NCBI RefSeq assembly: GCF_017876795.1
Contig: NZ_JAGIOR010000001.1
Coordinates: 186,001-250,000 of the forward strand
Direction: 5' to 3'
From: Rhizobium leguminosarum
GTDB taxonomy: Bacteria > Pseudomonadota > Alphaproteobacteria > Rhizobiales > Rhizobiaceae
Length of the DNA: 64,000 bases
Position numbers and translations under genes: made by a program. Within the stretch, counting starts at the first letter, position 1, and each line of letters opens with the position of its first letter. The notes under the pieces are model-generated. The model had not been told where the DNA came from and searched no databases. It was given only the letters and a program-made list of their open reading frames with translations. Below are positions 44,646 through 61,589 of the stretch, piece after piece.

Positions 44646-44757
44646 AGCATGATGCCGAAAAGTGTGCGCGGTTTTCTTATGACATCATGCTCTCACTCTA
44701 GAATGTAGAACAGGATTCAGATTTTAGGCCAACGGGCCTAAAATCATCCTGTTCTAA
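44642..44757. repeat. Two adjacent Rhizobium-type palindromic repeats
   Basis: 44642-44696 begins CTAGAGCATGATGCC and ends CATCATGCTCT; its 44642-44676 part is an inverse copy of 2101-2135 with one mismatch. 44705-44756 has arms around TTTTAGGCC-AACG-GGCCTAAAA, flanked by TAGAACAGGAT / ATCCTGTTCTA. They lie between the SelW-like and BA14K-like genes and probably terminate both. Confidence 0.75.
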
Positions 44758-45358: not shown

Positions 45359-45445
45359 GCCCAGATGGCGGAATTGGTAGACGCGCCAGCTTCAGGTGCT
45401 GGTACCCGAAAGGGTGTGGAGGTTCGAGTCCTCTTCTGGGCACCA
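45359..45445 (+). tRNA. tRNA-Leu (anticodon CAG), CCA encoded
   Basis: An 87-base class II tRNA. The 7-bp acceptor stem is GCCCAGA / TCTGGGC, then A and genomic CCA. The anticodon stem CCAGC / GCTGG encloses TTCAGGT with anticodon CAG at 45393-45395. A long variable arm (ACCCGAAAGGGT) and the T loop GGTTCGAGTCC are present. It is intact although its 3' end is the attachment site of an integrative element: the last 19 bases recur at 58645-58663. Confidence 0.97.
45427..45445 (+). other. attL core of the tRNA-Leu integrative element
   Basis: AGTCCTCTTCTGGGCACCA, the 3' end of tRNA-Leu including CCA, is identical to 58645-58663. The integrase gene begins within about 100 bp, as usual for elements in tRNA genes. 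Confidence 0.9.
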
Positions 45446-45543
45446 TTCCCATTATAAGTCCTTGTTAGGACATGTGTTTCAGCAAGATCAAAGACTTGCG
45501 AACTGCGCTTGGTACAAACGTTTGGTACAAAGGCAGTTTCACA

Positions 45544-47331
45544 ATGGGTGTCGTGGTGCGCAATCTTTACAACGTAAATGGTAAGTGGAAATACCGAAAG
45601 GTAATCCCCGCTGCGCTTAGACCGCACGTCGCTGGCAACCTCACAGAGTTTGTACGATGGCTTGGTTCGGGCAGCCAAAATAGCGCTGATGTTACTGCCC
45701 GCTATTCGGCGGCTGCCAAGGAGTGCGAAGCCCTTCTTGAGGTGGCGAAGAAGCGTTCACATGCTTCCTATGACGAACTCAGCGCCGAGATGATTGTTCA
45801 TATCATTGAAACCGAGCGCAGCAATTTGCTCTGGGAAGATGATGAGGACCGATTTGACCAAGAAGCAGACATGCTGTTCGAGCACGTTCGCCAGCAGGTC
45901 GCTGCTTCGGGCGCAGGCGCAATCGTCAACGACGATCCCGACCGTCGATGGAATAATCGACAGGAAACGCTTGAGGCATACCTTTCGAACCTTAGACACG
46001 ATTATGCTCGCGGAACGGTCGACGCCTTCCACCTCGGTGAACTCATGGATGTATGTGCGTCTCATGGGCTTCTAGTCGATCCGCAAAACCTGAGCTTCCG
46101 ACGGCTCGGCAAGGCCTACATAGGGATGATGATCGAAGTCGGCGAGGCAAGGCTGCAGCGGCAGAGAGGGATTGTTGTACCGACACCAGAGCCTCCAAAG
46201 GCCGCGACGGTCCAGCAGGTGATCTCCGGCGACCTAACGCTGCGGGAGCTAGCCGAGAAGAAGCTCGCGATGAAGAATAAGAGCGAGGCGACCACTCAGG
46301 CTACCGAAACGGCACTTCGGTTGTTTGAAAGCGTCTATGGTACCCGCGCAATGACAACTATCACACGCAGGGAAGTTGCCGACTGGATATTTCTCCTTCA
46401 GAAAAAGCCGGCCACTCCGGATAAGAAGCACCGTGCTCTCGGTCTGCGAGAGATGGTGGACGCCTATGAAACCCGCAAGGATGTTCAGCGGCTCACCGGC
46501 AAGAGCGTGAACGGCCATGTCAGCCATCTCAACTCAATCTGGGCTTGGGCCAGACAGCGCGGCTTTGTGGATCGTTCGCTAGACAATCCATTCGGTGAGC
46601 AGCGCGTCGATGAACGTCCGCCTGAGGCAAATGAAGGCTTTACGCCGACCCAGCTCCAAGCTCTTTTCAATCTTCCGGTCTTCACGAAGGGAGAACGTCC
46701 CAAAGGTGGCCGGGGTGAGGCGGCATTCTGGCTTCCTCTGCTCCTTCTAACCTATGGTACTCGCCCGGAGGAGATGTGCCAGCTTCTTGTGAGTGATATC
46801 ACTTACGATGACGAGGAAGCCCTTTGGTGCCTCAGAATTACAGACGAAGGGCTTCATCCCGTTAAGGGTCCTAGACACATCAAAGCTGATGGCAACGCTC
46901 TGGTACGCCGTAGCCTCCCCATCACGCAGAAACTCATTGAGCTTGGCTTTATCGACTATGTAGAGCGGCTCCGCCAAACCGGAGAACTGGCGGTGTTTCC
47001 GCTGCTGACCACTAAGGGCAAGCTCGGCTATCTCCATTCCAGCTTCGCAACATGGTGGGGCAAATATGCACGGGAGCACAAGGCCATTCCAGAAAGCGGT
47101 AACAAACCGCTACGCGGCTTCAGGGATACTTGGACAACTGGGGCTGCACGTTCGGGCGTAACGGAAGAGGAGCGCGAGTGGATACAGGGGCACTACGTCG
47201 GGAAAGGGAAGACCGCCAATCGGAACTATGGGACCCGCGATTTCGGCAAGAAAATTGAGCAAATCAACTTCCGGGGGCTAGATCTCTCCAAACTACTGCC
47301 TCCCAAGCTGCTTGGAAAACATGGTGATTGA
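45544..47331 (+). CDS. Tyrosine recombinase (site-specific integrase) of the tRNA-Leu element
   Basis: A 595-residue integrase. It starts GVVVRNLYNVNGKWKYRKVI, the arm-binding region of DUF6538-type integrases, and has a long helical middle part. The C-terminal catalytic domain shows Arg in YGTRPEEM, HIKADG, a second Arg in LRGFRDTW, His in GHYVGKG and a final Tyr in NRNYG. The usual His of the HxxR box appears replaced by Arg (RGFR). ATG 45544 is chosen by the domain start; an ATG at 45472 would add 24 residues. It probably mediates integration into the tRNA gene 99 bp upstream. Confidence 0.88.
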   Translation: MGVVVRNLYNVNGKWKYRKVIPAALRPHVAGNLTEFVRWLGSGSQNSADVTARYSAAAKECEALLEVAKKRSHASYDELSAEMIVHIIETERSNLLWEDDEDRFDQEADMLFEHVRQQVAASGAGAIVNDDPDRRWNNRQETLEAYLSNLRHDYARGTVDAFHLGELMDVCASHGLLVDPQNLSFRRLGKAYIGMMIEVGEARLQRQRGIVVPTPEPPKAATVQQVISGDLTLRELAEKKLAMKNKSEATTQATETALRLFESVYGTRAMTTITRREVADWIFLLQKKPATPDKKHRALGLREMVDAYETRKDVQRLTGKSVNGHVSHLNSIWAWARQRGFVDRSLDNPFGEQRVDERPPEANEGFTPTQLQALFNLPVFTKGERPKGGRGEAAFWLPLLLLTYGTRPEEMCQLLVSDITYDDEEALWCLRITDEGLHPVKGPRHIKADGNALVRRSLPITQKLIELGFIDYVERLRQTGELAVFPLLTTKGKLGYLHSSFATWWGKYAREHKAIPESGNKPLRGFRDTWTTGAARSGVTEEEREWIQGHYVGKGKTANRNYGTRDFGKKIEQINFRGLDLSKLLPPKLLGKHGD

Positions 47332-47511
47332 TTTCCGCGCTCACCTGTCTTTCGTTGATGCAGTGAAGTGAAGATGCATCACCAATGGTGATAAGCCACC
47401 AAATCACTATCTCCACAGCATCGTCCATTGACGCCCCACACGAGGTCTTGCACAGTCCTCTGCGTCGTCCAGTCGGGTCCGGCTAACCTTCACAAATACA
47501 GAATTGAAATT

Positions 47512-49092
47512 ATGGCAGCAGACCTCAAGACGATCTCCGACAAACTGTGGACCACCGCAGACAAGCTTCGGGCCAATTCTGGCATTCTGCCGGCTGAGTA
47601 TGCCCGACCCGTACTCGGCCTCCTGTTCCTACGCCATGCCGACGAGCGGTTTACCGAGGTTGAAGCAAGGCTTGCGCCGCGTGAAGGCTCGCGTATCAAG
47701 CCCGGCCCGGAAGCCTACAAGGCCGAAGGGGCTGTCTTCCTGCCACCTGACGCTAGATTTTCGTTCCTGCTTGCCCTTCCTGAAGGTTTGAACCTTGGCC
47801 GCGCGTTGACAACCGCCATGCGTGAGATCGAGGCAAAGAACCCGGAACTGGCGGACGTGCTGCCGAAGACCTATCAGTCGATCCCCGACGACGTACTCGT
47901 CGAACTGCTTCGCGAGCTTCAGCCGCTGAAAATTCGTGGCGACGCCTTCGGCCACGTCTATGAATATTTCATGGGCAACTTCGCCAAGGACACAATGCAG
48001 AAGGGCGGCGAGTTCTATACGCCCTCGTCTATCGTCCGGCTGATCGTCGAAATCATCGAGCCCTATCACGGGCGGATTCTGGACCCGGCCTGTGGCTCAG
48101 GCGGCATGTTCGTACATTCGGCGGATTTCGTGAAGCGCCATCAGCGAGAGCCCGACAAGGAGCTGTCGATCTATGGTGTCGAGCGGACCCGAGAAACCTG
48201 GCGCTTGGCTCAGATGAATCTTGCGGTGCATGGCCTCTCCGGCAAAATCCTCGACGCCGACACCTATCGGGACCCGACCTTCGAAGAGGTGATGCCAAAG
48301 AAGAACGACAAGGGCCGTTACGAGGGGCCGGGTGGTTTCGATTTCGTCATGGCCAATCCTCCCTTCAACGTAAAGGAACTCGACAAGAGCAAGCTGCTGG
48401 ACGTCGCCAATCGCTTTCCCCACGGTGTCCCAAGTGCCGACAATGCCAACTATCTCTGGATCCAGTTCTTCTGGTCGCGCCTGAACGAGACGGGCCGCGC
48501 CGGATTCGTCATGGCCAATTCCGCAGCCGATGCGCGAGGCACCGAACAAGAGATCCGAAAGAAGCTGATCCAAAGCGGCAGCGTCGATGTCATCGTTTCG
48601 GTGGGACCGAACTTCTTCCTGACGGTTACGCTTCCCTGCACCCTCTGGTTCTTCGACAAGGGCAAGGCGACGGGACCGAGGGCCGATGAGGTGCTGTTCC
48701 TCGATGCCCGACACATCTTCCGCCAGATCGACCGCTCCCATCGCGACTTCACCGAAGAACAGGTCGAGGCTCTGGCCAATATCGTGCGGCTCTGGCGGGG
48801 CGAGGAGCCGGAGTTCTTCACTCACTCGAAGGCGTGGCTGGAGGAACGCTTCCCGGGACTTGCCTACTGTGACGTGGCCGGTCTTTGCCGCAGTGCCACC
48901 CGCGTCGCGATCGCGGGGCACGGTTGGTCGCTCAATCCTGGGCGTTATGTCGGGGTCGCCGCCGGTGAAACGGACGAGGAGGATTTCCGGGAGAAGCTGG
49001 AAGAGTTGCATGAAGAGCTAGAGACGCTGAACGTTGAGGCCGCAAGGCTGCAATCAATTATATCCCAGAATGTTGGTGAGGTGCTGCAATGA
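47512..49092 (+). CDS. hsdM: Type I restriction-modification system methyltransferase subunit
   Basis: A 526-residue N6-adenine methyltransferase. The HsdM N-terminal domain starts DLKTISDKLWTTADKLRANS. The AdoMet motif I is DPACGSGGMFVHS and the catalytic motif IV is MANPPFN. A helical C terminus (EEDFREKLEELHEELETLNV) contacts HsdS. The ATG at 47512 begins the domain; the frame is open upstream to 47428. Its stop overlaps the hsdS start (ATGA). With HsdS it makes the modification enzyme that protects host DNA. Confidence 0.95.
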   Translation: MAADLKTISDKLWTTADKLRANSGILPAEYARPVLGLLFLRHADERFTEVEARLAPREGSRIKPGPEAYKAEGAVFLPPDARFSFLLALPEGLNLGRALTTAMREIEAKNPELADVLPKTYQSIPDDVLVELLRELQPLKIRGDAFGHVYEYFMGNFAKDTMQKGGEFYTPSSIVRLIVEIIEPYHGRILDPACGSGGMFVHSADFVKRHQREPDKELSIYGVERTRETWRLAQMNLAVHGLSGKILDADTYRDPTFEEVMPKKNDKGRYEGPGGFDFVMANPPFNVKELDKSKLLDVANRFPHGVPSADNANYLWIQFFWSRLNETGRAGFVMANSAADARGTEQEIRKKLIQSGSVDVIVSVGPNFFLTVTLPCTLWFFDKGKATGPRADEVLFLDARHIFRQIDRSHRDFTEEQVEALANIVRLWRGEEPEFFTHSKAWLEERFPGLAYCDVAGLCRSATRVAIAGHGWSLNPGRYVGVAAGETDEEDFREKLEELHEELETLNVEAARLQSIISQNVGEVLQ

Positions 49093-50351
49093 AATCACCC
49101 GCTTGGCAGGACGTGACGCTTGGAGAGTTGATTGAGCTAGACGCGGGTTTCGCATTCAAGAGTGCTCAGTACACAGAGGCGGATACTGATATCAAGTTGT
49201 TGCGAGGAGACAACATCGGACAGGGGGGGCTTCGATGGGAGGGTGTAAAGACGTGGCCGAAATCTGACGCCCTCAACCACACTCGGTACGAATTGCGAGT
49301 TGATGATGTCGTGCTGGCAATGGACCGGCCTTGGATAGAGGCGGGGCTGAAGTTCGCCGCAGTCAGACAACGAGACTTGCCATGCCTTCTGGTGCAACGA
49401 GTGGCCCGATTGAGGGCGAAGCATGGTCTACATCAGAGGTATCTACGGTACGTAATCGGTTCGAAGGCGTTTACTAATCATGTGAAGTCCATCACTACCG
49501 GAGTGAATGTGCCGCATATCTCGGGACATGACATCTCCGCGTTCAAGCTGTCCCTGCCCCCCTTTGACATTCAGCAACGTGTCTCCGGCATCCTCTCTGC
49601 CTACGACGACTTGATCGAGGTGAATCAGCGGCGCATTGCGATCCTTGAGGACATAGCGCGGCGACTTTTCGATGAATGGTTCGTCCGCTTCCGCTATCCG
49701 GGCCATGAAGCCGTGCCGTTGATCGAGACGGAACTCGGAACAATGCCTGAGGGATGGCATCCGCGAAAGCTGAGTTGGTGGGCTGCCGAGATCAGAGCCA
49801 CCATTAGTCCGCAGCGAGTTGATCCTCTGATCTCCTATTTAGGTCTTGAGCATCTCCCAAGGCGCTCAATAACATTGGTGGAGGTGGGCAGGGCTCAGGA
49901 CGCCACCAGTTCAAAGCTCAGATTTGAACCCGGAGACATACTTTTCGGCAAGATCCGCCCCTATTTCCACAAGGTCGCATATATGCCTTTCTCCGGCGTG
50001 TGTTCAACTGACGCGATCTGCATCCGTGCAACCAACCCGGACCACACGGCTTTGATCCTCGGCTTGGTCTCAAGCGACGCTTTTGTTGCTCACGCTGTGG
50101 CAACGTCAAATGGCACCAAAATGCCACGCGCCGACTGGAAGGTGCTCAAGAACTATCCTCTCCCTGAGCCGCCAAAGCTCCTGCTCTCAGCCTTTGAGCG
50201 AGCAGTGAATCCCATGATAGAGAGTGCAACAAACTTGGCCGCGCAAAACGTCCGCCTCCGCTCTGCTCGCGATCTTCTTCTCCCCAAGCTGCTCTCTGGC
50301 GAAATCGACGTCTCGACCGCCGAAGAGACCTTTGCCGAGGCGGCGGAATAG
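49089..50351 (+). CDS. hsdS: Type I restriction-modification specificity subunit
   Basis: A 420-residue HsdS with two target recognition domains, residues about 1-165 and 212-380. The conserved helical spacers are LIEVNQRRIAILEDIARRLFDEWF and at the C terminus NLAAQNVRLRSARDLLLPKLLSGEID. TRD1 starts WQDVTLGELIELDAGFAFKS; TRD2 starts around GWHPRKLSWWAAEI. Each TRD reads one half of a bipartite target; the sequence cannot be deduced here. It overlaps hsdM by four bases and is followed by hsdR after three bases. Confidence 0.94.
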   Translation: MKSPAWQDVTLGELIELDAGFAFKSAQYTEADTDIKLLRGDNIGQGGLRWEGVKTWPKSDALNHTRYELRVDDVVLAMDRPWIEAGLKFAAVRQRDLPCLLVQRVARLRAKHGLHQRYLRYVIGSKAFTNHVKSITTGVNVPHISGHDISAFKLSLPPFDIQQRVSGILSAYDDLIEVNQRRIAILEDIARRLFDEWFVRFRYPGHEAVPLIETELGTMPEGWHPRKLSWWAAEIRATISPQRVDPLISYLGLEHLPRRSITLVEVGRAQDATSSKLRFEPGDILFGKIRPYFHKVAYMPFSGVCSTDAICIRATNPDHTALILGLVSSDAFVAHAVATSNGTKMPRADWKVLKNYPLPEPPKLLLSAFERAVNPMIESATNLAAQNVRLRSARDLLLPKLLSGEIDVSTAEETFAEAAE

Positions 50352-50354
50352 TTT

Positions 50355-53300
50355 ATGGCCGACAGCCCGAAGGACATCCAATATGGCATTCCCGAGGGCA
50401 CCCGCGCCACGCTGGCCGGCTTCTCTGAGGACGGGCTCGTAGAGAAACCGGCAATCGAGCTTATGGAGAGCCTCGGCTGGAGCCATTTCAATCTCTATGA
50501 CGAAACCTTCGGTCCCGACGGCTCCCCGTTTCGCGACACGTTGCGCGATCCTTATGTGACCAAGGTGCTTCGGACCGCGCTAGCCCGGCTAAACCCCGGC
50601 TTGCCCCAGGACGCCCTCGACCTCGCCTTCGACATCCTGACGCAAGACCGGGCGTCGATGGTGCCTATAGCCGCGAACCGGGAAGTGCTGGAACTGTTGC
50701 GGGACGGCGTCGATGTGGAATACCGCGACGATGACGGCGGCATGACCAAGGATCGGGTCCGTGTTATCGACTGGCGCCATCTTGACGCCAATGACTTCAC
50801 CCTGATCTCGCAGGTCTGGATTTCGGGCGAACTCCACCGCCGCCGCACGGATCTGATCGGCTTCGTCAACGGAGTGCCGCTGCTTTTCATTGAGCTGAAG
50901 GCCGGACACAGGCGGATCGAGGATGCCTATCGCCACAATGTCCGCGACTACCGCGACAGCATTCCGCAGCTCTTCCGGCCCAATGGGTTTGTTCTCGTCT
51001 CCAACGGTCTCGACACCCGGATCGGCGCTTCGGCCCATTCACCGTGGGATGCTTACAAGGAATGGAAGCGGATCGACGACGAGACCGAGCCGGGCCGCGT
51101 GTCGCTCGAAGCCGCGATCCGTGCCGCCGCCACGCCCGAGCGCCTGATCGACCTTGTCGAGAACTTCCTCATCTTCGAGGAGACCAAGGACGGCCTCGTC
51201 AAGAAGATTGCTCAGAACCACCAGTTCCTCGGGGTGAACAAGGCGGTTCAGGCCGTGGTCAATCTCGGGGAGAACCGAGGCAAGCTCGGGGTCTTCTGGC
51301 ACACGCAAGGGTCAGGCAAGAGCCTTTCCATGCTGACCTTTACGCGAAAGGTATTGCGAACGATCCCCGGGGCCTGGACCTTCGTGATCGTCACCGACCG
51401 CGAGGAACTGGACAAGCAGATTTCCGACGTCTTCGCCGCCTGTGGCGCGGTGACCAAGGATGTGCGGGAGGTTCGCGCCGGGTCGAAGGAGCATTTGAAG
51501 ACGCTGCTACGGGGCAACGAGCGCTACGTCTTCACCCTGATCCACAAGTTCGGCACGGCCAAGGGCGAGACCTTTCCAGTCCTTTCCGAACGGTCGGACA
51601 TCATCGTCATCGCCGACGAGGCCCATCGCTCGCAATATGACACGCTGGCCGCCAACATGCGCCGGGCGTTGCCAAACGCCGCGTTTATCGGTTTCACCGG
51701 GACACCGTTGATGGCCGGGGAAGAGAAGACCCGCGACGTCTTCGGCGAGTACGTCTCGACCTACACCTACCAGCAGTCGACCGAGGACGGAGCCACGGTT
51801 CCGCTCTACTACGAGAATCGCATCCCCGAGCTGGAATTTGCCAACGAGAGCTTCGCCGGGGATCTGGAAGCCGTCATCGAAGAGGCCGATCTCGACGAGG
51901 AACAGGAGCGCGAGCTCGAGAAACGCCTCGGCACCCAATACCACCTGATCACCCGCGAGGACCGTCTGGACCGGATTGCCGAGGACCTCGTTCGCCACTT
52001 CGTCGGTCGCGGCTATCGCGGCAAGGCCATGTTCGTGGCGATCGACAAGGCAACGGCGGTGCGGATGTACGACAAGGTTCGTCGCGCATGGGATGCCGAG
52101 ATTGGACGGCGCGAGACAGCCTTAGTTTCAGGTCCCGCCGATCAACGCGAGAGCTTGGCCGCTGTTATCGCCTTCATGCGCGAGACGGAAATGGCGGTAG
52201 TGGTCAGCCAAGGCCAGAACGAGATTGCCGACATGGAGGCCAAGGGCCTCGACATTCGCACCCACCGTAGGCGTATGATCGAAGAGGATCTGGACGAGCG
52301 GTTCAAGAAGGGCAGCGATCCGCTTCGACTGGTCTTTGTCTGCGCCATGTGGATCACCGGCTTCGATGTACCGACTTGCTCGACTATCTATCTCGATAAG
52401 CCGATGAAGAACCATACTTTGATGCAGACCATCGCCCGGGCAAACCGGAATGCGCCGGGCAAGAAGGCCGGTTTGATCGTCGACTATGTCGGCATCTTCC
52501 GAAATCTGGAGAAGGCGCTCGCCATCTATGCCCTGGGCGGCGCAACGAATGCCAAACCCATCGAGGATAAATCCGCACTGGTCGAGGACCTAGCCCAAGC
52601 CATCGAAGAGGCTCTTGCTTTCTGCCAGGTGCGGGACGTCGACCCGCGTGCGATCCTTGAGGTGACCGGGTTTGACCGGCTGGCGAGGCTCGGCGATGCA
52701 GTAGAAGCGTTGAACGGCACAGACCCCGAGCGCCGCACCTTCCTCGCGCTGGCTTCCAATGTCTGGAATACCTTCAAGGCCGTGCTGCCCGACGCCCGGG
52801 CCGAGCCATACCGCAAGATCTCGGCAGCCATCGAGGTCATTGCCGAGCGTATTCGCTCTCTCGCCGAAAGGCCGGATATCTCCGAGGTCTCCAGCAAGAT
52901 CGAAGCCTTGCTCGACGACTCGATTGCAGGTGTGGAGATCACGGCCCCCATTCGCGAAGACGGCGACACCACCGGCCTGTTCGACCTCTCCCGGATCGAC
53001 ATCGAGCGCCTGAGGGCCATGTTCGACACGGGCAATCGCCAGCGCACCGAGACACAGCGTCTTCGTCGGGCCGTCGAAGATCGGCTGGAGGACATGGTCG
53101 CTCGCAATCCGACGCGCCGTGGCCTCGTCGAGCGCTTCGCGGCTCTGGTCGCTCAATACAATGCCGGAAGCCTGACCGCCGCCGACTTCTTCAATCAGCT
53201 CCTGGCATTGGTCGGCGACATGAACACCGAGGACCAGCGAGCAATCCGTCAGGGCTTGACCGAGGAAGAGCTGGCGATCTTCGACATCCTGACGCAGCCG

Positions 53301-53567
53301 GAGCCGAAGCTCGGACCCGGGGACGAGGACCTCGTCAAGCGCGTGGCCAAATCACTGCTGGAGAAGCTCAAGGCCGAGAAGCTAGTTCTGGACTGGCGGC
53401 TCAAGGAACGGGCCAAGGCGGCAGTCAAGGCGACGATCCAGCAGCTCTATGACGACGGCCTGCCTCAGGCGTATGGGCAAGGCGTATTCGACGACAAGGT
53501 TGAGCGGACATATCAGTGGGTGTTCGAAAAATACGCCGGTGACACAGGAAGCAGCGCGACGAATTGA
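50355..53567 (+). CDS. hsdR: Type I restriction endonuclease subunit
   Basis: A 1070-residue motor-nuclease. The N-terminal nuclease domain has the PD-(D/E)xK-like FIELKAGHRR near residue 180. The SF2 translocase has Walker A HTQGSGKSLSML, DEAHRSQ (motif II), GFTGTPLMAGE (motif III) and FVCAMWITGFDVPTCST with RANRN (motifs V-VI). A long helical C terminus (DUF3387-like) ends near YAGDTGSS. Complete, so the RM system is probably functional. No frameshift seen. Confidence 0.96.
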   Translation: MADSPKDIQYGIPEGTRATLAGFSEDGLVEKPAIELMESLGWSHFNLYDETFGPDGSPFRDTLRDPYVTKVLRTALARLNPGLPQDALDLAFDILTQDRASMVPIAANREVLELLRDGVDVEYRDDDGGMTKDRVRVIDWRHLDANDFTLISQVWISGELHRRRTDLIGFVNGVPLLFIELKAGHRRIEDAYRHNVRDYRDSIPQLFRPNGFVLVSNGLDTRIGASAHSPWDAYKEWKRIDDETEPGRVSLEAAIRAAATPERLIDLVENFLIFEETKDGLVKKIAQNHQFLGVNKAVQAVVNLGENRGKLGVFWHTQGSGKSLSMLTFTRKVLRTIPGAWTFVIVTDREELDKQISDVFAACGAVTKDVREVRAGSKEHLKTLLRGNERYVFTLIHKFGTAKGETFPVLSERSDIIVIADEAHRSQYDTLAANMRRALPNAAFIGFTGTPLMAGEEKTRDVFGEYVSTYTYQQSTEDGATVPLYYENRIPELEFANESFAGDLEAVIEEADLDEEQERELEKRLGTQYHLITREDRLDRIAEDLVRHFVGRGYRGKAMFVAIDKATAVRMYDKVRRAWDAEIGRRETALVSGPADQRESLAAVIAFMRETEMAVVVSQGQNEIADMEAKGLDIRTHRRRMIEEDLDERFKKGSDPLRLVFVCAMWITGFDVPTCSTIYLDKPMKNHTLMQTIARANRNAPGKKAGLIVDYVGIFRNLEKALAIYALGGATNAKPIEDKSALVEDLAQAIEEALAFCQVRDVDPRAILEVTGFDRLARLGDAVEALNGTDPERRTFLALASNVWNTFKAVLPDARAEPYRKISAAIEVIAERIRSLAERPDISEVSSKIEALLDDSIAGVEITAPIREDGDTTGLFDLSRIDIERLRAMFDTGNRQRTETQRLRRAVEDRLEDMVARNPTRRGLVERFAALVAQYNAGSLTAADFFNQLLALVGDMNTEDQRAIRQGLTEEELAIFDILTQPEPKLGPGDEDLVKRVAKSLLEKLKAEKLVLDWRLKERAKAAVKATIQQLYDDGLPQAYGQGVFDDKVERTYQWVFEKYAGDTGSSATN

Positions 53568-53840: not shown

Positions 53841-54371
53841 TCATTGTGCACCTCCGGTCTTCTTAGGTGTCAGTACGGTGGACTTGAGTTGGTCAAGCTC
53901 ATCGTCTGATGTCTGAGATCGTACGGCTTTCGTATCTCGTCTCTGCGCATCACGGAGCTTTTTTGCGTCGAGTTTTTCCCGCAGAAGTTTCTCAGCAATC
54001 GGCAGAAGCAATTCCTTAGTCGGTGCGACGTTGTAGTAAGGTCTGCCGTCTGCGGTGCGACTCTTCACTATGAACCCTTTGCCTTCCAAAGACTTCGTAA
54101 TCCTTTGAATGGACCGAGGGCTTACGCCCATGCGGTCAGCGATCGTAGCGGCGCGAGGAAAAACGACATCCTTCGGTCGCCACCAATGCGCCAACAAGTT
54201 CAGAAGCACATTGAGCTCTTCGCTTGAGAGGCGCAGCTCGGACTGGGCAAATAGTAAGACGTCCGGAAGCGCTTGGTATCCAGCCTCGGCCACTTTCCCC
54301 CATCGCTCAGATATCCGAAAGCCTTCCAAAGGCTCCTGCGATGCCAACTCTGATAAGTTCTCAATTCTCAT
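53841..54371 (-). CDS. Helix-turn-helix DNA-binding protein
   Basis: A 176-residue protein. The central winged HTH is at residues about 48-110 (LSSEELNVLLNLLAHWWRP, RAATIADRMGVSPRSIQRIT, then wing SRTADGRPYYNVAPT). The C-terminal 50 residues are strongly charged and helical (KLLREKLDAKKLRDAQRRD). This form resembles replication-initiator-type and phage regulators. It is convergent with hsdR and divergent from the resolvase. The 248 bp upstream contain the candidate res site. The target is unknown. Confidence 0.75.
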   Translation of the reverse strand: MRIENLSELASQEPLEGFRISERWGKVAEAGYQALPDVLLFAQSELRLSSEELNVLLNLLAHWWRPKDVVFPRAATIADRMGVSPRSIQRITKSLEGKGFIVKSRTADGRPYYNVAPTKELLLPIAEKLLREKLDAKKLRDAQRRDTKAVRSQTSDDELDQLKSTVLTPKKTGGAQ

Positions 54372-54489: not shown

Positions 54490-54605
54490 AAAGCGTCCAC
54501 TAGCCTATACGGCAGCGTACAGGCACAATTAGGCCGGCTTGGGTGTCCACTAGGGTTGACATCGCCTTGTGTACAGCCTGCGTCTGTGTACACAGCCCTA
54601 ACAGA
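54490..54605. promoter_or_regulatory. Candidate res site and promoter region of the resolvase
   Basis: Two GTCCACTAG copies at 54495-54503 and 54545-54553, spaced 50 bp, are mixed with GTACAG (54517 and 54571) and two inverted TGTGTACA-type units at 54569-54593. A TTGACA lies at 54556-54561. Serine resolvases bind arrays of such inverted half-sites next to their own gene, and this one lies directly upstream. Confidence 0.5.
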
Positions 54606-54619
54606 CAGGACAGGCGACC

Positions 54620-55294
54620 ATGACCAAGACCGTTCTTTACGCCCGCGTTTCGACCGCTGATCAGACCGTAGGCCACCAGAAGACAACGGCAGAGGCCAAA
54701 GGATACGTCTTTGATGAGGTGGTCACCGATGACGGCATATCGGGAAGTGTGTCGCTGAAGGATAGGCCACAGGGCAAACGGTTGCTTGATCTGCTGCGCC
54801 GAGGTGACACCTTGGTCGTCCGGTGGGTTGATCGTCTTGGCCGTGACTACAACGATGTGACCGACACCATCCGCGATTTCATGCGCAGAGGCGTGATCAT
54901 CAAGACCATCATCAACGACATGGAGTTCGACGGGTCGCGTACCGATCCTATGGGAATGGCCCTGCGAGACGCGATGATGACGTTCATGGCTGGCATGGCA
55001 CAGGCGCAGCTTGAGGCCACCAAAGACGCCCAGAGGTCCGGGATTGCCCATGCTCAGACGAAAGAGCCTGAGAAGTTCCTAGGCCGGAAGCCGACCTTCG
55101 ATGGCGACCAGCTTGTCGAGGTAATGCGCCTGCTTGGCCTTGGTACCAGCAACAGCGAAATTGCCAGAAAGACGAGATTGGTGCGGCAGACAATCATTCG
55201 AATTAAAGCCGACCCTGCCAAAGCCGCACAGCAGGTGGCGTCTTGGGAGCAAGCCGAGGAGTTGCGGAAGTCACCAAAGAAGCGCCGGGGCTAG
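54620..55294 (+). CDS. Serine recombinase (resolvase/invertase type)
   Basis: A 224-residue recombinase. The N-terminal catalytic domain begins VLYARVSTADQT; Ser in RVS is the nucleophile and Arg residues in VVRWVDRLGRDY assist. The long helix E follows (FMAGMAQAQLEATKDAQRSG), and a C-terminal HTH_7-type domain (LGTSNSEIARKTRLVRQTIIRIK). This matches Tn3-like resolvases and invertases rather than large serine integrases. No Tn3 transposase is near, so it may resolve multimers of the excised element. Confidence 0.93.
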   Translation: MTKTVLYARVSTADQTVGHQKTTAEAKGYVFDEVVTDDGISGSVSLKDRPQGKRLLDLLRRGDTLVVRWVDRLGRDYNDVTDTIRDFMRRGVIIKTIINDMEFDGSRTDPMGMALRDAMMTFMAGMAQAQLEATKDAQRSGIAHAQTKEPEKFLGRKPTFDGDQLVEVMRLLGLGTSNSEIARKTRLVRQTIIRIKADPAKAAQQVASWEQAEELRKSPKKRRG

Positions 55295-56117
55295 CCTCAC
55301 GCATCGCCAGAAGCCTGCGAATGTTGAGCGGGAGCAGACTTGGACGAGTGTATAAATCGGATTGATACCCCGAAAATTGGCCGGGGTAATCGGTGCGTCT
55401 CTCCAGTTCTTAGGAGCGGGAACGTTGTTCACGAGGCAACAGGCACGGGTCGCAGGATGGCGGCAGAGGTAGCCGCTTGGGTGCGGCAGGGGTCCGGTGG
55501 ATTGATTTGGCCTCATTCTCCGCTCCAATATTTTCCCAATTTGAGGCCATATATTCTCCCACGCCAACCTCAGACACCCTGAGTTCCCTCATCTCCACAC
55601 CAGATCTTGCAGACTATGCGTCTACCTATGTCGTTGTAATTAATTGATTTTTTCTGATTTTCTCTTGACGGGTACAGCCTGATGCGGGCATACGTACACC
55701 GCCTGACGGTCTGGGGACATCACCCCGGCGCAGGGGAAGCGGAAGCGGCCCCGTATAGCGGAACGAAAGCACCAAATCGGGAGCGGTCATTGGCCGCAAG
55801 CAGTGGCAAGGCAGGACGGCAGTGGCCCGAATGTTGAACCGAGCGGTGAGGGATTGGCCGGGAAGCAAACCCGCGTCCCCTAACGACACCACAGAACCAC
55901 AGGTCATCATTCCGACACCGAGCGGCACAGCCGCCACCTTCGTGACGAGACAACACCAAGCCCACGGGCGACACATCACATCATCGATACTGCTCAACTA
56001 AATCCTGCTCCCGTGCCTCAGGGTCCCGGTACGGTCAGCCATGCAGCGGGTACTGCATGAACAGGGGTTCCATCCCCTGCCCCGACCCATTCCCAAAGAT
56101 TGAGATCACACGCACAT
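55295..56117. other. Gene-poor stretch of the integrative element
   Basis: About 820 bases without a convincing gene. Open frames exist on both strands (for example 55340-55582 and 55626-55997), but their products are low-complexity and lack ribosome sites, so I leave them out. An A+T-rich part lies near 55630-55670. Short hairpins occur at 56041-56090. The position between the resolvase and a polymerase-like gene would suit an origin of replication, but no iterons are visible. Confidence 0.4.
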
Positions 56118-56798
56118 ATGAAAACTTGCAAGGCTGGCGGATGCTCCGCTCAGGTCAATGGCTACAGTGCACTCTGCGAACAGCATAAGCGGACGAAAGC
56201 TCGCCACGGTCACCCTCTCCAGACCGGCGTCAAGAAATCCGACCTCAAACCCTACATCAAGGAAATCGAAAGCTACTTGAACACCGTCTCTACGACCAAC
56301 GCCTACGAGTCGATGAACGACATCTGGGCTCGCACTGTCGCTGCGGCGAAGGCCCACATCAGGACTTCAGAACGTGGCGTTGCGGCCAACGTCCATGAGC
56401 TTCAGGCATCCAAGGCAATCGTCTCGCTGTCCGAAGAGACCGATAGCATGACAATAGCCAAGCTCCTCATGGGGATGGGCTACTGGCACGAGGATGACCA
56501 GAGGCGCTGGAAGTACGACAATGGGTTCCGTTTCCAGACCGTACGCATGCTGCTTCGCCTGAACCCTCGTGAGGCCGCGTACAACTGGTCCATGAACGGG
56601 ATGACACGCAGCGTTTACCGAGAGGTGCCACCGAGGACCATAGCGGCTCTCTGGTCGATCATCGAGGCCACGAAGCTCGTTGGTTACGGGGTGGAAATTG
56701 CCAAGCGCAGGGCGAAAGCCATGGAGGCAGCTCGCAAGAAGGTCAGGACCGAGCGGGACGCGATCCTTGGACCAGAGCTGACAGGAGGCGCAGCATGA
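56118..56798 (+). CDS. Zinc-finger-like protein coupled to the polymerase-like gene, unknown function
   Basis: A 226-residue protein. The N terminus has Cys at residues 4, 9 and 20 and His at 23 (CKAGGC, CEQH), a likely C-C-C-H zinc site. The rest is helical and basic: KSDLKPYIKEIESYL, DIWARTVAAAKAH, and a C-terminal AKRRAKAMEAARKKVRTERD. Nucleic-acid binding is plausible. The stop overlaps the next start by four bases (ATGA), so both are translated together. No known family recognised. ATG 56118 is chosen over a TTG six codons upstream. Confidence 0.7.
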   Translation: MKTCKAGGCSAQVNGYSALCEQHKRTKARHGHPLQTGVKKSDLKPYIKEIESYLNTVSTTNAYESMNDIWARTVAAAKAHIRTSERGVAANVHELQASKAIVSLSEETDSMTIAKLLMGMGYWHEDDQRRWKYDNGFRFQTVRMLLRLNPREAAYNWSMNGMTRSVYREVPPRTIAALWSIIEATKLVGYGVEIAKRRAKAMEAARKKVRTERDAILGPELTGGAA

Positions 56799-58096
56799 GT
56801 GGAGCTTGCACCAAAGACAGCAGCAAGCCCGTGGACAGGCCATTCAGCCCGTGGCGCTTCGCCAAGACCGAGGCGTCAAAGGCGCTCATCACCGAGGCCA
56901 TCGCGGACGTTGAGCACTACGAGGAGCACGGTAAGCTCCGCAACCGCAGACGAAGGGAACACGACCAAGAAACCTTCGAGCTTACAGTGGAGGCCGTCCT
57001 CTGTGACCTGATGCATCACGCGCTCTACCAGCGTCCAGATGCGATCTACGTTACTCGCTCAAATGCCGTCCTTGGACGCCGGAACCGATACCGTCCACGG
57101 GTATACGGCAAGACCTTTCCCGATGTCCTTGACAGGCTGGCTGCTCCAGAACTGGGCTGGATTGTTCAACAGATTGGCGACAGCGATTGGCGGCAAAATG
57201 CGCGGCGCACGACCATCTGTCCCGGTCCGCAGCTACTCGCACGTCTGGACACCGGGGCGATCACCTTCGCCGACCTTGGGTTAGCTCGCGTGACGGAACC
57301 AATCATCCTGAAGAGCGAGAAGGCGGACTTCTGGGACGAAGCACATGTCATCGACTACGACGATACAGAGGAGACAAGCCTCTTTCGGCGAGAGATGCGG
57401 GACATCAACGATTGGCTGCGGTCTGCTGACATCGAATATGGAACGTACAACGGCGACACCAGCCCCGTTCCCGACACCAGCGACCGAGACCTACGCCGCA
57501 TCTTTACTCGGGGGCGGTTCGAGAACGGCGGTCGTCTCTTTGGTGGCTTCTGGCAGGTGATGAGCAAGGAAAGCCGGTTTGACCGCCTTGTCATCGACGG
57601 CGAGGCAATAGTCGAACTGGACTACGCTCAAATGGGACCAAGGCAGCTTTACGGCATAGCGGGTGCCGTTCCGGCTGCATCCGACCTCTACGCCATTCCC
57701 GGCTTTGAGGAACACCGAAAGGGCATCAAGGTCGTCTTCAGTTCGATGGTCTTCCGCGACACGCCCATGAGGAAGATGCTGCGGGGATCTGTTGGTAAGT
57801 TTCCTGAAGGCACTCGCATATCCGAAATCACCGAGGCCATCATCCGCCACCATCCCGCGATAGCACACCTCTTCTTCACCGGAGTTGGGCATCATGTTCA
57901 ACGTCAAGAGAGCCAGATCATGGTCAGCATCCTACTGAGCTTGAAATCTCATGGGATCGTGGCCCTGCCCGTACACGACGCGATCCTTGTGGCATCTTCC
58001 AATGCGATGGTGGCCAAGCAGGTGATGGGTGATGTCTTCTCACACCATGTCGGCTTACCTGGACTGGTCGATGTGTCTTCCACCCACGTACGGTGA
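56795..58096 (+). CDS. Compact family A DNA polymerase-like protein (uncharacterised)
   Basis: A 433-residue protein. The C-terminal part shows polymerase palm motifs in family A order. Motif A-like is VELDYAQMGPRQ (Asp276; PolA has DYSQIELR). Motif B-like is RKGIKVVFSSMVF (Arg308, Lys312; PolA has RxxxKxxNFG). Motif C is LPVHDAILVA (His394-Asp395; PolA has VHDE). The upstream stretch FTRGRFENGGRLFGGFWQ also occurs, as I recall, in an uncharacterised phage/plasmid family. No 3'-5' exonuclease or 5' nuclease domain is seen, and the N-terminal 230 residues are unassigned. It may copy the element or prime its replication. Activity is inference. Confidence 0.65.
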   Translation: MSGACTKDSSKPVDRPFSPWRFAKTEASKALITEAIADVEHYEEHGKLRNRRRREHDQETFELTVEAVLCDLMHHALYQRPDAIYVTRSNAVLGRRNRYRPRVYGKTFPDVLDRLAAPELGWIVQQIGDSDWRQNARRTTICPGPQLLARLDTGAITFADLGLARVTEPIILKSEKADFWDEAHVIDYDDTEETSLFRREMRDINDWLRSADIEYGTYNGDTSPVPDTSDRDLRRIFTRGRFENGGRLFGGFWQVMSKESRFDRLVIDGEAIVELDYAQMGPRQLYGIAGAVPAASDLYAIPGFEEHRKGIKVVFSSMVFRDTPMRKMLRGSVGKFPEGTRISEITEAIIRHHPAIAHLFFTGVGHHVQRQESQIMVSILLSLKSHGIVALPVHDAILVASSNAMVAKQVMGDVFSHHVGLPGLVDVSSTHVR

Positions 58097-58230
58097 CCTC
58101 GGTCTACCATGGTTGGGGGCCCCCTGATGGGGATGGCCCTCACACCTTCGACACCAATGGCTACCAATGCCTACCTACGTAACCCTTATATCAACCATGG
58201 TACTACTCATTGGAGGTCCCGTAAGAGGAC

Positions 58231-58503
58231 ATGACCGAACGCGACACCCCTAACGCTCACTCCATCATCATCGACCCGAAACGTCAGCGCTACCTCAAGT
58301 GGAAGGTCTCTAGGGAACGGACGACCGTTGAAGGGATAGCCAGTTCAATCGCCTTCCTCAGAACCGGCAAATTCAAAACTATCGAACAGCTTGCGGTCGC
58401 GATGACGCTGACAGTTCCACAGGTGAGATGGAGGCTTAGCAAGGGCCGGGAACGTGGTTTCATTAGCGACGGGTTCTACCAGTCTTTCGCAGAGCCCACG
58501 TGA
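58231..58503 (+). CDS. 90-residue protein with possible HTH, unknown function
   Basis: The product starts at ATG 58231 with AAGAGG upstream. A possible helix-turn-helix covers residues about 48-75 (FKTIEQLAVAMTLTVPQVRWRL), with basic residues before it (RQRYLKWKVSRERT). It is last in the element and 140 bp before the right att site, where excision factors or regulators often lie. No family recognised. Confidence 0.55.
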   Translation: MTERDTPNAHSIIIDPKRQRYLKWKVSRERTTVEGIASSIAFLRTGKFKTIEQLAVAMTLTVPQVRWRLSKGRERGFISDGFYQSFAEPT

Positions 58504-58644: not shown

Positions 58645-58663
58645 AGTCCTCTTCTGGGCACCA
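58645..58663 (+). other. attR core of the tRNA-Leu element / attL of the next element
   Basis: Identical to 45427-45445, the last 19 bases of tRNA-Leu. Sequence to its right includes a terminator (58705-58731) that was probably the native end of the tRNA gene. Confidence 0.88.
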
Positions 58664-58848: not shown

Positions 58849-60054
58849 ATGGCCCTCACCGACGTACAAGTTAGAAATCTGAAAGGCCAGACGGCCGCAA
58901 AGAAATACAGCGATGCCGGCGGCCTGCATCTGCTCGTCACGCCGAGCGGTTCGAAGCTCTGGCGAATGCAATACCGGTTCCACAACAAACAGCGGACATT
59001 GGCCTTCGGGGCGTATCCGGCCGTGAGCCTTGCTGACGCACGCAAACGCCGCGACGAGGCCAAGAAGCATCTTGCCGCCGGCTTGGACCCTTCCCACCAG
59101 GCGAAGATCGAGAAGATCATCAGCCGCACGTCGAATGGGACCACCTTCACCGTTATCGCGGACGAGTTCCTGGCGAAGGTCAAGCGCGAGGGCAAGGCGG
59201 CGGCGACGGTAGCGAAGAAGGAATGGCTTGTCGGCCTTGCACGTGGCGATCTGGGCAAGAGGCCCATATCTGAGATCACTGCCGCTGAAATCCTCGTACC
59301 GCTGCGCAAGGTCGAAGCAGATGGGAACTACGAGACAGCACGCCGGCTTCGATCAACGATCGGTCAGGTCTTCCGGTACGCGGTCGCCACGGGCCGGGCG
59401 GCAAACGACCCAACAGGCGCGCTAAAGGGTGCGCTCATCGCGCCCACTGTGACGCACAGGGCCGCTGCCACCGAACGAGATACGTTCGCCGGGCTTCTTC
59501 GGGCTATATGGGCCTACGACGGCATGCCCGAGACGCGGGCGGCTCTGAAGCTTATGGCGATCCTCTATCCGCGCCCCGGCGAACTGCGACAAGCGGAATG
59601 GTCGGAATTCGATCTGGGCAAGCGGGAGTGGATCATTCCATCGGAGCGAGCCAAGATGCGCCGGGAGCATCGAAAGCCTCTCCCCGATCAGGCAGTCGCG
59701 ATCCTGAAGGAAGTCCACAAGCTCACTGGCGACGGTCCACGCGTCTTTCCTGCCGTCCACACCCGACAGCGCCCGATGTCCGAAAACACGCTAAACGGGG
59801 CGTTGCGACGCCTGGGCTTCAGTTCGGACGAAATGACCAGCCACGGCTTCCGGGCGACCGCCTCGACCCTGTTGAACGAGAGCGGCAAATGGCCAGCTGA
59901 CGCTATCGAGGCCGAACTTGCCCATGCCGGCGCGGACCTGGTGCGCCGCGCGTATCACCGCGCTCTCTATTGGGATGAGCGTGTCCGCATGGCGAGATGG
60001 TGGGCGGACGAAATCGACGCGCTGCGCGCCGAGAAAGTGGACATCTTCTCGTGA
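58849..60054 (+). CDS. P4-type tyrosine integrase of a second element
   Basis: A 401-residue integrase of the DUF4102/P4 group. The N-terminal arm-binding domain begins ALTDVQVRNLKGQTAAKKYS and has DAGGLHLLVTPSGSKLW. The core-binding domain follows, and the catalytic domain shows Arg in PRPGELRQAEW, HGFRATAST (His and Arg), His in AELAHAG and Tyr in RRAYHRALYW. These integrases target tRNA 3' ends. It starts 185 bp after the att copy and faces right, so it probably belongs to a prophage-like element that continues past the window edge. Confidence 0.94.
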   Translation: MALTDVQVRNLKGQTAAKKYSDAGGLHLLVTPSGSKLWRMQYRFHNKQRTLAFGAYPAVSLADARKRRDEAKKHLAAGLDPSHQAKIEKIISRTSNGTTFTVIADEFLAKVKREGKAAATVAKKEWLVGLARGDLGKRPISEITAAEILVPLRKVEADGNYETARRLRSTIGQVFRYAVATGRAANDPTGALKGALIAPTVTHRAAATERDTFAGLLRAIWAYDGMPETRAALKLMAILYPRPGELRQAEWSEFDLGKREWIIPSERAKMRREHRKPLPDQAVAILKEVHKLTGDGPRVFPAVHTRQRPMSENTLNGALRRLGFSSDEMTSHGFRATASTLLNESGKWPADAIEAELAHAGADLVRRAYHRALYWDERVRMARWWADEIDALRAEKVDIFS

Positions 60055-60136: not shown

Positions 60137-60523
60137 TTGAGATTACTATGGATTATTCTGGCAACAACTGTTGGCTTTGGGGTCAGCGGATGCCAGACGA
60201 ACGCGGAATACCAATCACAACTCAACGAAAATCTAGACGCCCGATTGAGCTCCTATCACGGCACGACCATGGCAGAGTTCATCGCGCGGACCGGCCTAAT
60301 TCCAGTGAACGCCTATCCCGTCGCGGGCGGCAAGGTGTTCGTGATCGAAGGCGCCCCGGTCTACGTCACGCTTCCTGCAACGCAGGTCACGCCGGCCATT
60401 ACAAGAGCATCGGCGTGCCAGCTTCTCATTCGAGCCGCTTTGACAGGGACCGGCGGCACGGCGGATGATTGGAAGATCGTCGGAACATCGCGGTCGGGAC
60501 CGTGCAACAATCTGCCAGTGTGA
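60137..60523 (+). CDS. Small lipoprotein, unknown function
   Basis: A 128-residue exported protein. From TTG 60137 the signal RLLWIILATTVGFGVSGC ends in a lipobox with Cys 19. The mature part contains ARLSSYHGTTMAEFIARTG and has two more Cys (SACQLL, GPCNN), likely a disulfide. No domain family recognised. It is upstream of the Abi gene and ends in a terminator-like hairpin. It could be a phage or element surface-exclusion protein, but nothing in the sequence shows this. Confidence 0.65.
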   Translation: MRLLWIILATTVGFGVSGCQTNAEYQSQLNENLDARLSSYHGTTMAEFIARTGLIPVNAYPVAGGKVFVIEGAPVYVTLPATQVTPAITRASACQLLIRAALTGTGGTADDWKIVGTSRSGPCNNLPV

Positions 60524-60549
60524 AGGCGAGGCGCCCGCTCATTGTGGCC

Positions 60550-60620
60550 TTGACAATATACAGAGACTAGCACATATCGAGGGGGACACGGCCGGCCCCT
60601 CTGCAACGCAAGGGTCGGCC
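60550..60620 (+). promoter_or_regulatory. Promoter followed at once by a terminator-like hairpin before the Abi gene
   Basis: TTGACA at 60550-60555 and CATATC at 60573-60578 with 17-bp spacing form a good promoter. At 60590-60620 GGCCGGCCCCT pairs imperfectly with AGGGTCGGCC, followed by TTCTTATTTT, and the Abi ATG is at 60633. The hairpin may end the upstream transcript or attenuate the Abi transcript from its first bases. Confidence 0.5.
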
Positions 60621-60632
60621 TTCTTATTTTCC

Positions 60633-61589
60633 ATGACATATAACAAACCGCACCTGACGGTTCCTCAGCAACGGGCCCTGCTCGAATCACGGGGCCTGTT
60701 GATCGCAGACACGGCCAAAGCCGAAGAGTATCTTCGACGGATCGGCTACTATCGCCTGAGTGCGTATTGGTACCCTTTTCGAAAGCTCGAGAAGCAGGCG
60801 GACGGTTCCCACAAGCTCGGCGATCACTTTAAAGACGGAACCGATTTTTCGCACGTCACCGACCTTTACGCCTTCGATAAGACACTGCGGCTCTTGGCGT
60901 TAGATGCGCTCGAACGGATCGAAGTATCGATACGCACAGAGGTGGCGCTATGCCTGGGTAGCCACGATCCCACCGGTCACCGCGACCCGAAAAAATTAGA
61001 TAGAAGGTTCACCACGCCAGGAGCCGGGTTCCAAAATTCAAAACACGGGGGCTGGCTGAAGCAACTGGACGATCGGGCAGCATCGTCCAAGGAGGAATTC
61101 GCTAACCATTTTCGATCGAAGTATCCAAACTCACATATGCCCATCTGGATCGCGGTCGAGCTTCTCGATTTTGGCCCACTCTCGCACCTCCTTGCGGGAA
61201 TGAGGTACGCCGACCTGCAGACCATTTCGAAGAGCTACGGCGGCCTCCAGCCCCACCTCATAAAATCATGGATCCGGGCGCTCTGCGGTGTCCGAAACGT
61301 CTGCGCGCACCATTCGCGTCTTTGGAACAAGCCTTTAGTCGATCAACCGGCATTGCCGCGCCAGGGAGAAGTGCCCGAGCTGGACCACTTGGCGCATACG
61401 CCAGGTGCGAACCGCAGGATCTATGCGGCATTCTCGGTCATGCAAACCTTTCTCAAATTGGTGAACCCGCGGACCAAATGGGCCGAACGCTTGAAGGCGC
61501 ACATGGCTACGTTCCCGGTCGCGCCCAACGTAACCATTTCGGACGCCGGCTTTCCGGCGAATTGGGAACAACTGCCGCTTTGGAAATAG
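60633..61589 (+). CDS. Abi_2 family abortive infection protein (AbiD/AbiF-like, HEPN)
   Basis: A 318-residue protein of the Abi_2 type. The N terminus is KPHLTVPQQRALLESRGL and the motif YLRRIGYYRLSAYWYPFR is the family mark, followed by FSHVTDLYAFDKTLRLLALDALERIEVSIR. Near residue 225 RNVCAHHSRLWN contains an RNxxxxH-like HEPN site, expected to be an RNase active site. Such proteins kill or stop infected cells to block phages. No ribosome site is seen before ATG 60633, and the hairpin upstream suggests tight control. Confidence 0.9.
   Translation: MTYNKPHLTVPQQRALLESRGLLIADTAKAEEYLRRIGYYRLSAYWYPFRKLEKQADGSHKLGDHFKDGTDFSHVTDLYAFDKTLRLLALDALERIEVSIRTEVALCLGSHDPTGHRDPKKLDRRFTTPGAGFQNSKHGGWLKQLDDRAASSKEEFANHFRSKYPNSHMPIWIAVELLDFGPLSHLLAGMRYADLQTISKSYGGLQPHLIKSWIRALCGVRNVCAHHSRLWNKPLVDQPALPRQGEVPELDHLAHTPGANRRIYAAFSVMQTFLKLVNPRTKWAERLKAHMATFPVAPNVTISDAGFPANWEQLPLWK

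Follow-up and report, generated by a model that had tools for sequence, protein, structure and literature searches.

The stretch of DNA analysed here (the window) comprises 64,000 nucleotides (nt) of Rhizobium leguminosarum, positions 186001-250000 of contig 1 in a genome of 7.58 Mb. It contains a gene for a small family A polymerase, POL (open reading frame (ORF) 56795-58096), whose start overlaps the end of a zinc-finger ORF by 4 nt (ATGA). Both genes lie within a 13.2 kb element that is inserted in a tRNA-Leu gene. The two genes of the pair are the following (aa, amino acids; pLDDT, predicted local distance difference test):

56118..56798, + strand: zinc-finger partner (ZNF), 226 aa, with a Cys3His motif, a helical body and a beta-hairpin at residues 154-167 (34-row alignment; model pLDDT 92.1)
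56795..58096, + strand: POL, a divPolA2-type family A polymerase, 433 aa, with motif A D276, steric-gate position G281, R308/K312 and motif C H394-D395

An earlier note on this DNA had described a family A polymerase-like protein of 433 residues with motif A, an RxxxK helix and motif C in the right order, lacking exonuclease parts and coupled to a Cys/His-rich partner. The family A order was indeed found, with the motif A Asp (D276), the RxxxK helix (R308xxxK312) and the motif C HD (H394-D395). An AlphaFold model computed from a 70-row alignment (pLDDT 92.9) shows the expected family A palm and fingers, exonuclease parts are absent and the catalytic Asp D276 is conserved in 116 of 116 aligned relatives. 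Neither outcome that the note had named as refuting, a predicted structure without a palm or Asp residues that vary among relatives, was therefore observed. In structure comparisons, the palm and fingers were equally close to single-subunit RNA polymerases (T7, N4, mitochondrial). These matches span mainly residues 165-432; residues 1-160 are barely covered, leaving approximately 160 N-terminal residues unmatched. The profile search against DNA polymerase I, which the earlier note had suggested as a check, did not give a significant result: the profile-profile comparison with PolA placed motif A in register but reached a score of 21.7 (E 0.16), with five unrelated control alignments at 14.8-18.7. 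Single sequences of T7 DNA polymerase and T7 RNA polymerase scored 17.4 and 21.2, respectively, the latter over 18 columns outside the palm. No Pfam family, including PF00476 (DNA_pol_A), matched POL at E<=1, and phmmer and profile searches against the PDB returned nothing useful. Proof of family A membership by sequence alone was thus rejected. The assignment is based on the structure model, because the sequence searches were insufficient on their own; judged from this model, POL is a family A palm fold without exonuclease.

The named relatives closest to POL are from Rhizobium strains. POL also matches phrog_4756, a PHROG annotated as being of unknown function, at 7.4e-31, and AUR84708, the divPolA2 representative of Yutin et al. 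(2024, PMC11348598), matches the same family at 1.8e-91. Furthermore, a 70-row POL profile built without isolate phages matched AUR84708 (67.8 bits, E 1.6e-22) and gp100 of phage ICP1 (88.9 bits, E 6.4e-29) in a set of four sequences. Based on the matches of AUR84708 to phrog_4756 and to the POL profile, POL is by sequence homology a member of divPolA2; Vibrio phages, including ICP1, encode the same family. The divPolA2/phrog_4756 lineage is already known from phages, and uncharacterised. According to Yutin et al., the phage proteins have an active-looking palm, lack the exonuclease, resemble DNA polymerases and mitochondrial RNA polymerase alike and, where thumb and exonuclease would be expected, carry a globular N-terminal domain that has no known relatives. 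A role in repair is suggested there, and an RNA polymerase is also left possible. Within the searched literature, the term divPolA2 occurred only in this paper and its preprint.

The motif A region of POL (D276-YAQMG281) aligns without gaps to DYSQIE of DNA polymerase I, which places Gly281 at the steric gate. None of 116 POL relatives has Glu at this position (G 31, F 21, A 19, N 12, S 7, M 6, H 6, Y 4, T 3, L 3, C 2, Q 2). Control rows of PolA and T7 DNA polymerase have Glu there in 29 of 31 cases, and the other two look misaligned at this point. Four positions after K312, at the counterpart of Phe762 in the E. coli enzyme, 115 of 116 relatives carry N, S, Q, A, L, G or V, and the remaining one has a gap. 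T7 RNA polymerase has Gly at its gate position (DGSCSGIQ), and POL with its G281 shares with the single-subunit RNA polymerases a motif A that lacks the Glu gate. In the review PMC4215692, Taq E615G is a steric-gate change in variants that accept ribonucleoside triphosphates. The A-family primase CcPol retains both residues (Glu, E174; Phe, F225) and uses deoxynucleoside triphosphates for priming (PMC7581432), whereas the lineage of POL has lost both positions. Because of this double loss, the POL lineage is predicted to be laxer toward ribonucleotides. A link between Gly281 and the zinc-finger partner was considered and rejected, as Gly281 occurred in 16 of 42 loci with the partner and in 12 of 45 without it.

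The Cys3His motif of the partner is conserved in its alignment, and its model consists of nearly all helix plus one beta-hairpin and does not show an OB fold. It weakly resembles the N-terminal domain of single-subunit RNA polymerases. Neither protein of the pair had a Pfam match or a useful NCBIfam match. To follow the pair in other genomes, we used a DNA-pattern scan of species genomes, which gave partial coverage as it was built on one conserved stretch (GGRLFGGFW type); it returned 147 stretches, of which 134 encode POL relatives and 80 were kept. The set comprised 87 POL loci, with the window's own copy counted as L037 and gene clusters named by their likeness to window genes. The coupling proposed in the earlier note extends to 42 of these 87 loci, in which the partner family lies at most 415 bp from POL, either upstream or downstream. 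Among the 70 rows of the POL tree, the partner is upstream in 14, downstream in 21 and missing in 35, and its position shows 10 and 7 label changes, i.e. several switches. The pair has therefore been rearranged repeatedly and yet kept together. Across 41 loci, the distances of POL and ZNF are correlated (rho 0.29, a value reached in 1 of 500 permutations), and no correlation was seen between POL and the serine recombinase (-0.03, 48 loci) or the integrase (0.02, 56 loci). In the 30 loci that have the serine recombinase in addition to the pair, the values were 0.19 for POL-ZNF (20/500) versus -0.12 for POL and serine recombinase. These comparisons used gene sets for which ORFs had been chosen greedily (integrase 57, serine recombinase 49, HsdM 16, HsdS 14 and HsdR 10 of 87). 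Two other Cys/His proteins near POL, L112:6935-7552 and L064:2571-3374, were noted in loci without a recognised partner and are possibly divergent partners.

At the level of the order, POL was found in 26 of 297 genomes (27 by profile search) and the partner in 27, of which 15 also have POL and 12 do not; another 12 genomes have POL and lack the partner. We inspected 12 partner-only stretches from 11 of the 12 POL-less genomes (G009 left out). Pfam identified SF2-type helicase genes in L195 and L199, in the latter case one approximately 1 kb away, and a RepA-like AAA_25 ATPase in L203, which also has an RNase H-like gene. L200 has an RNase HI neighbour, and L193 and L194 have, by eye, a Walker-bearing, helicase-like protein nearby. 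L193, L194, L195, L199 and L203 are thus sister islands with a helicase-like gene in place of POL. The copy in L197 adjoins an MmeI-like gene (by eye), and a clear catalytic neighbour was not seen in L192, L196, L198, L201 and L202. Due to the helicase and RNase H neighbours in part of the POL-less loci, the partner appears to be a factor of the replication type, which in some cases could pair with a helicase instead of POL.

The earlier note had placed the pair in a plasmid-like element. Its membership of a mobile element stands, in the form of a 13.2 kb island in tRNA-Leu with 19-bp repeats and an integrase. Apart from the pair, the features of the element are (RM, restriction-modification):

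45359..45445, + strand: tRNA-Leu(CAG), the target gene (ARAGORN); its last 19 nt (45427-45445) are attL
45472..47331, + strand: tyrosine integrase, 619 aa, beginning 27 bp past the tRNA; Pfam match sub-threshold (PF00589, E 0.055)
47428..49092, + strand: HsdM, type I RM methylase (cargo; PF02384 1.7e-78; PADLOC MTase_I)
49089..50351, + strand: HsdS, specificity subunit (cargo; PF01420 4.3e-17; PADLOC)
50355..53567, + strand: HsdR, restriction subunit (cargo; PF18766 2.7e-74, PF04313 6.1e-45; PADLOC)
53841..54371, - strand: winged-helix protein, initiator- or regulator-like (HTH_36 1.5e-9; DnaD_N 27 bits, at the cut-off)
54620..55294, + strand: small serine recombinase of resolvase/invertase type (PF00239 1.2e-25; cluster-profile relatives in 53 of 87 POL loci)
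55660..56117, + strand: non-coding block, strongly conserved across 4 rhizobial relatives; a candidate for an origin, a promoter or an RNA
58231..58503, + strand: 90-aa ORF, by eye possibly a small DNA-binding regulator; apart from L037, 3 rhizobial relatives have a homologue
58645..58663, + strand: attR, a 19-bp copy of the tRNA-Leu 3' end and right end of the element

The exact 19-bp direct repeat AGTCCTCTTCTGGGCACCA at 45427-45445 and 58645-58663 delimits nine ORFs. The chromosomal flanks meet with a 7-nt overlap in the genomes G339, G303 and G023; this empty site is that of the whole tandem array (the element together with a prophage) and not of the polymerase element alone. With direct repeats at its ends, an integrase and an array-level empty site in relatives, the island has the features of a tRNA-integrated element. 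A profile made from 69 POL-linked integrases gave its integrase 183 bits, and ORFs that match this integrase at E<=1e-5 are present in 14 of 87 POL loci. Pfam detected no capsid, terminase or relaxase among the nine ORFs, of which those for POL, the zinc-finger protein and the 90-aa protein are without any Pfam match; the last had no match in NCBIfam or PHROG either. Phage replication-initiation HTH profiles matched the winged-helix ORF at E ~2e-6, and its homologues occur in 2 of 87 POL loci. A CTGTGTACACAG palindrome precedes the serine recombinase at about 54584-54595. Two ACCATGGT palindromes, 88 bp apart, lie between POL and the 90-aa ORF (58106-58113 and 58194-58201), and similar copies also follow POL in L044 and L046.

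Similar islands recur around other POL genes. When all ORFs of the 87 loci were searched with profiles, 60 loci had a tyrosine integrase, 53 the serine recombinase, 17 an HsdM-like, 15 an HsdS-like and 11 an HsdR-like ORF. The examined stretch contains a tRNA in 41 loci (the window entered as WIN, L037 left out). In 23 of these, 15 nt or more of the tRNA 3' part are repeated, always across POL from the tRNA; the other 18 have no such repeat. The target tRNAs vary (Leu, Ser, Thr, Gln, Asn, Met, Ala, Pro). The 22 elements beyond that of the window are 5.6 to 14.2 kb long and all contain POL; an integrase lies within 200 bp of the end in 21 of 22, or 22 of 23 with the window, and in L044 the ORF straddles the end. 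Over all 23 delineated elements, each of which had been located via POL, POL and the integrase are present throughout, whereas 20 elements have the serine recombinase and 17 the zinc-finger gene. The smallest element, L110 (5.6 kb), consists of an integrase, POL and small ORFs. L055, with a less certain left bound, holds a long ORF that by eye resembles molybdopterin oxidoreductases (PF00384 seen). Pfam searches of 91 of the 121 non-core ORFs identified restriction subunits, AbiU2, AbiEii-like ATPases, TIR domains, MmeI and a C5 methylase as cargo, together with RNase H in two cases, to which PHROGs add RNase H and helicases. Capsid, terminase and relaxase genes were not seen among the best 25 of 63 and the best 25 of 96 cargo families. 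RNase H genes (Pfam PF00075) touch POL or lie within approximately 100 bp of it in L039, L062 and L087, and the RNase HI of L060 was confirmed but lies about 2 kb from POL. Candidates in L042, L117 and L119 came from an iterated profile only, were not confirmed by Pfam (L042 E 0.19) and were not counted.

Approximately 800 nt of mostly non-coding DNA separate the serine recombinase from the zinc-finger gene and include the conserved block 55660-56117. A structured RNA gene was first suggested here by conservation and by double changes at 3 of 52 predicted pairs (5 sequences), but was not supported further, as folding was not better than in shuffles (minimum free energy z +0.84; other strand +1.73; L046 +1.02) and Rfam gave no match within the block. 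A ColE1-like pre-primer RNA was also considered and left as unproven. The block was found in 3 of 394 genomes of the family (the window's own and two short, weak matches) and was not found by sequence outside the rhizobial group. A TTGAC box is visible by eye at ~55665, where promoter prediction did not list a sigma-70-like promoter, and motif repeats in intergenic DNA, as would mark a promoter of the element's own, were not above shuffles.

To the right of attR, a second tandem tRNA-Leu insertion runs from 58664 through the window end at 64000 to about 280276 of contig 1 and ends at a 16/19 copy of the repeat (window-equivalent 94258). It is probably a prophage, which has been entered in IMG/VR. 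Its genes include an integrase (58849-60054) and an Abi_2/AbiD gene (60465-61589). This integrase was rejected as the element's own and belongs to the next element, because its position is beyond attR and no more than 3 of 87 loci, counting the window's own copy, contain a homologue. The IMG/VR record L037 starts at 54620, inside the polymerase element, and its bounds mix the two elements. Left of the island, a repeat of ~55 bp (44702-44757) occurs in many places in this genome and its relatives and is probably a dispersed intergenic repeat.

Among known systems, two-protein A-family primases of mobile elements come closest (PMC7581432, PMC10061031). Like PolA-SSB and CcPol-MP, the window pair is an A-family polymerase adjoining a small partner on an integrated mobile element with recombinases, RM cargo and empty sites, and CcPol-MP of SCC elements primes de novo (PMC7581432). 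The PolA-SSB partner has an OB fold and is not zinc-binding, whereas the window partner is a helical zinc-finger protein; moreover, PolA-SSB pairs are mostly found with large serine recombinases in Bacillota, in contrast to the tyrosine integrase and small serine recombinase of the present type, which is mostly found in Pseudomonadota. The polymerase lineage differs as well. Since its partner lacks the OB fold and Pfam searches of the element ORFs found no COG3378/DUF927 helicase, the pair falls outside the PolA-SSB family in its defined sense. Rice 2023 (PMC10061031) likened the SSB partner in function to the T7 N-terminal domain, which our zinc-finger partner may, according to its model, resemble in fold. 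Pipolins, like the window element, are integrated in tRNA genes between att repeats and carry tyrosine recombinases and RM genes, and their common gene is likewise that of a private polymerase (PMC7385651). Their polymerase piPolB belongs to family B, whereas POL is family A-like and hence not a primer-independent family B polymerase. Finally, divPolA2 phages show variable neighbourhoods and a regular polymerase, whereas the gene is shared by tRNA-integrated bacterial elements here; the consulted sections of PMC11348598 mention neither a zinc-finger partner nor tRNA-integrated elements for divPolA2.

Taken together, the pair sits at the heart of tRNA-inserting islands of many bacteria and probably starts copying or transcribing them. 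The fold, the conserved catalytic residues, the gene pairing, the recurrence in elements with defined boundaries and the loss of the gate Glu, along with the CcPol-MP precedent, suggest by analogy a two-protein, primase-like replication starter of a tRNA-integrated element, a reading to which we assign a probability of about one half. We infer excision, origin binding, de novo priming and ribonucleotide use as its steps. The tyrosine integrase would excise a 13.2 kb circle, and the zinc-finger protein would bind and open an origin within the element, for which the conserved non-coding block just upstream of the pair is the best candidate, and keep hold of the single strand. The small family A polymerase would then initiate synthesis without a primer, probably tolerating ribonucleotides since it lacks the Glu of the steric gate, and extension of the product would fall to host polymerases. 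Several observations weigh against this proposal. A recognised zinc-finger partner is missing from 45 of 87 POL loci, and conversely 12 of the 27 partner-bearing genomes of the order give no POL match; half of the 12 partner-only stretches show neither a helicase nor an RNase H neighbour. Universality of the partner for divPolA2 was rejected, as a profile search of four phage stretches gave no credible copy (best E 0.26). In the 20 loci with all four genes, the POL-ZNF correlation (0.14; 44/500) is near that of POL and integrase (0.11; 107/500). Position 281 is not only small, being F, Y or H in 31 of 116 relatives and M, L or Q in 11, and an aromatic residue or His could act as an alternative gate. 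Moreover, each of the 17 published PolA-SSB pairs is associated with a helicase (PMC10061031), whereas HsdR with its helicase motifs is the only helicase recognised in the window element, and the regular polymerase of divPolA2 phages (PMC11348598) argues against a general replicase.

The resemblance to single-subunit RNA polymerases allows two other interpretations. The pair may be a split enzyme for T7-style transcription of the element, with the zinc-finger protein as promoter-binding N-terminal part and POL as catalytic part. The palm and fingers are equally close to those of these enzymes, the gate position has Gly as in them, and the partner is weakly similar to their N-terminal domain, whereas the two genes, the zinc-binding motif, the unmatched N-terminal residues of POL and the lack of a known promoter set the system apart; we consider it unlikely. 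Somewhat broader, and in our opinion possible though doubtful, is the idea that a zinc-bearing N-terminal domain for template or promoter binding and a catalytic hand form the two halves of an RNA-making single-subunit polymerase, which would produce primers or transcripts for widespread tRNA-integrated islands as a family A counterpart of pipolins. RNA primers would in that case be removed by the element's RNase H where present.

It is quite unlikely, in our assessment, that POL serves in repair or second-strand synthesis, either filling gaps or converting incoming single-stranded element DNA to duplex after transfer and before integration. Such a function would suit the absent exonuclease, the small size and the RNase H neighbours in some loci, and similar suggestions were made by Rice 2023 for second-strand synthesis by PolA-SSB (PMC10061031) and by Yutin et al. 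for divPolA2 in repair. However, it accounts neither for the loss of the Glu gate from all 116 relatives nor for the pairing of the zinc-finger protein with helicase-type genes in some other loci. The type I RM, AbiU2, AbiEii-like ATPase, TIR and MmeI genes of the elements raise the question whether POL is itself cargo, an anti-phage polymerase comparable to defence reverse transcriptases. This is improbable given that PADLOC matches neither POL nor its partner and that Vibrio phages, including ICP1, carry the same family; POL is also constant in 23 of 23 elements while the defence cargo varies, a comparison biased by the elements having been found through POL.

The interpretation in the earlier note is thus supported in part. 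The note had also suggested that the pair may be a replication or priming system not yet described. This does not hold for the divPolA2 lineage (PMC11348598) or for two-protein A-family primases of mobile elements (PMC7581432, PMC10061031), which are already known, but divPolA2 combined with a zinc-finger protein in islands integrated at tRNA genes appears to be new: in the searched literature (titles and openings of abstracts, with subscription papers and most preprints outside the coverage), divPolA2 was not described in integrative elements or with such a partner. With it, an orphan phage lineage gains a genetic home, a recurrent partner and a testable role, and two-protein A-family primases are extended from Bacillota cassettes to tRNA-integrated, often defence-carrying islands of Pseudomonadota and beyond. 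If the pair were an RNA-making enzyme in two halves, it would represent a natural intermediate between DNA polymerase I and the T7 and mitochondrial RNA polymerases. Making RNA or starting synthesis de novo would in either case bear directly on the conversion of a primer-dependent DNA polymerase into a primase or an RNA polymerase.
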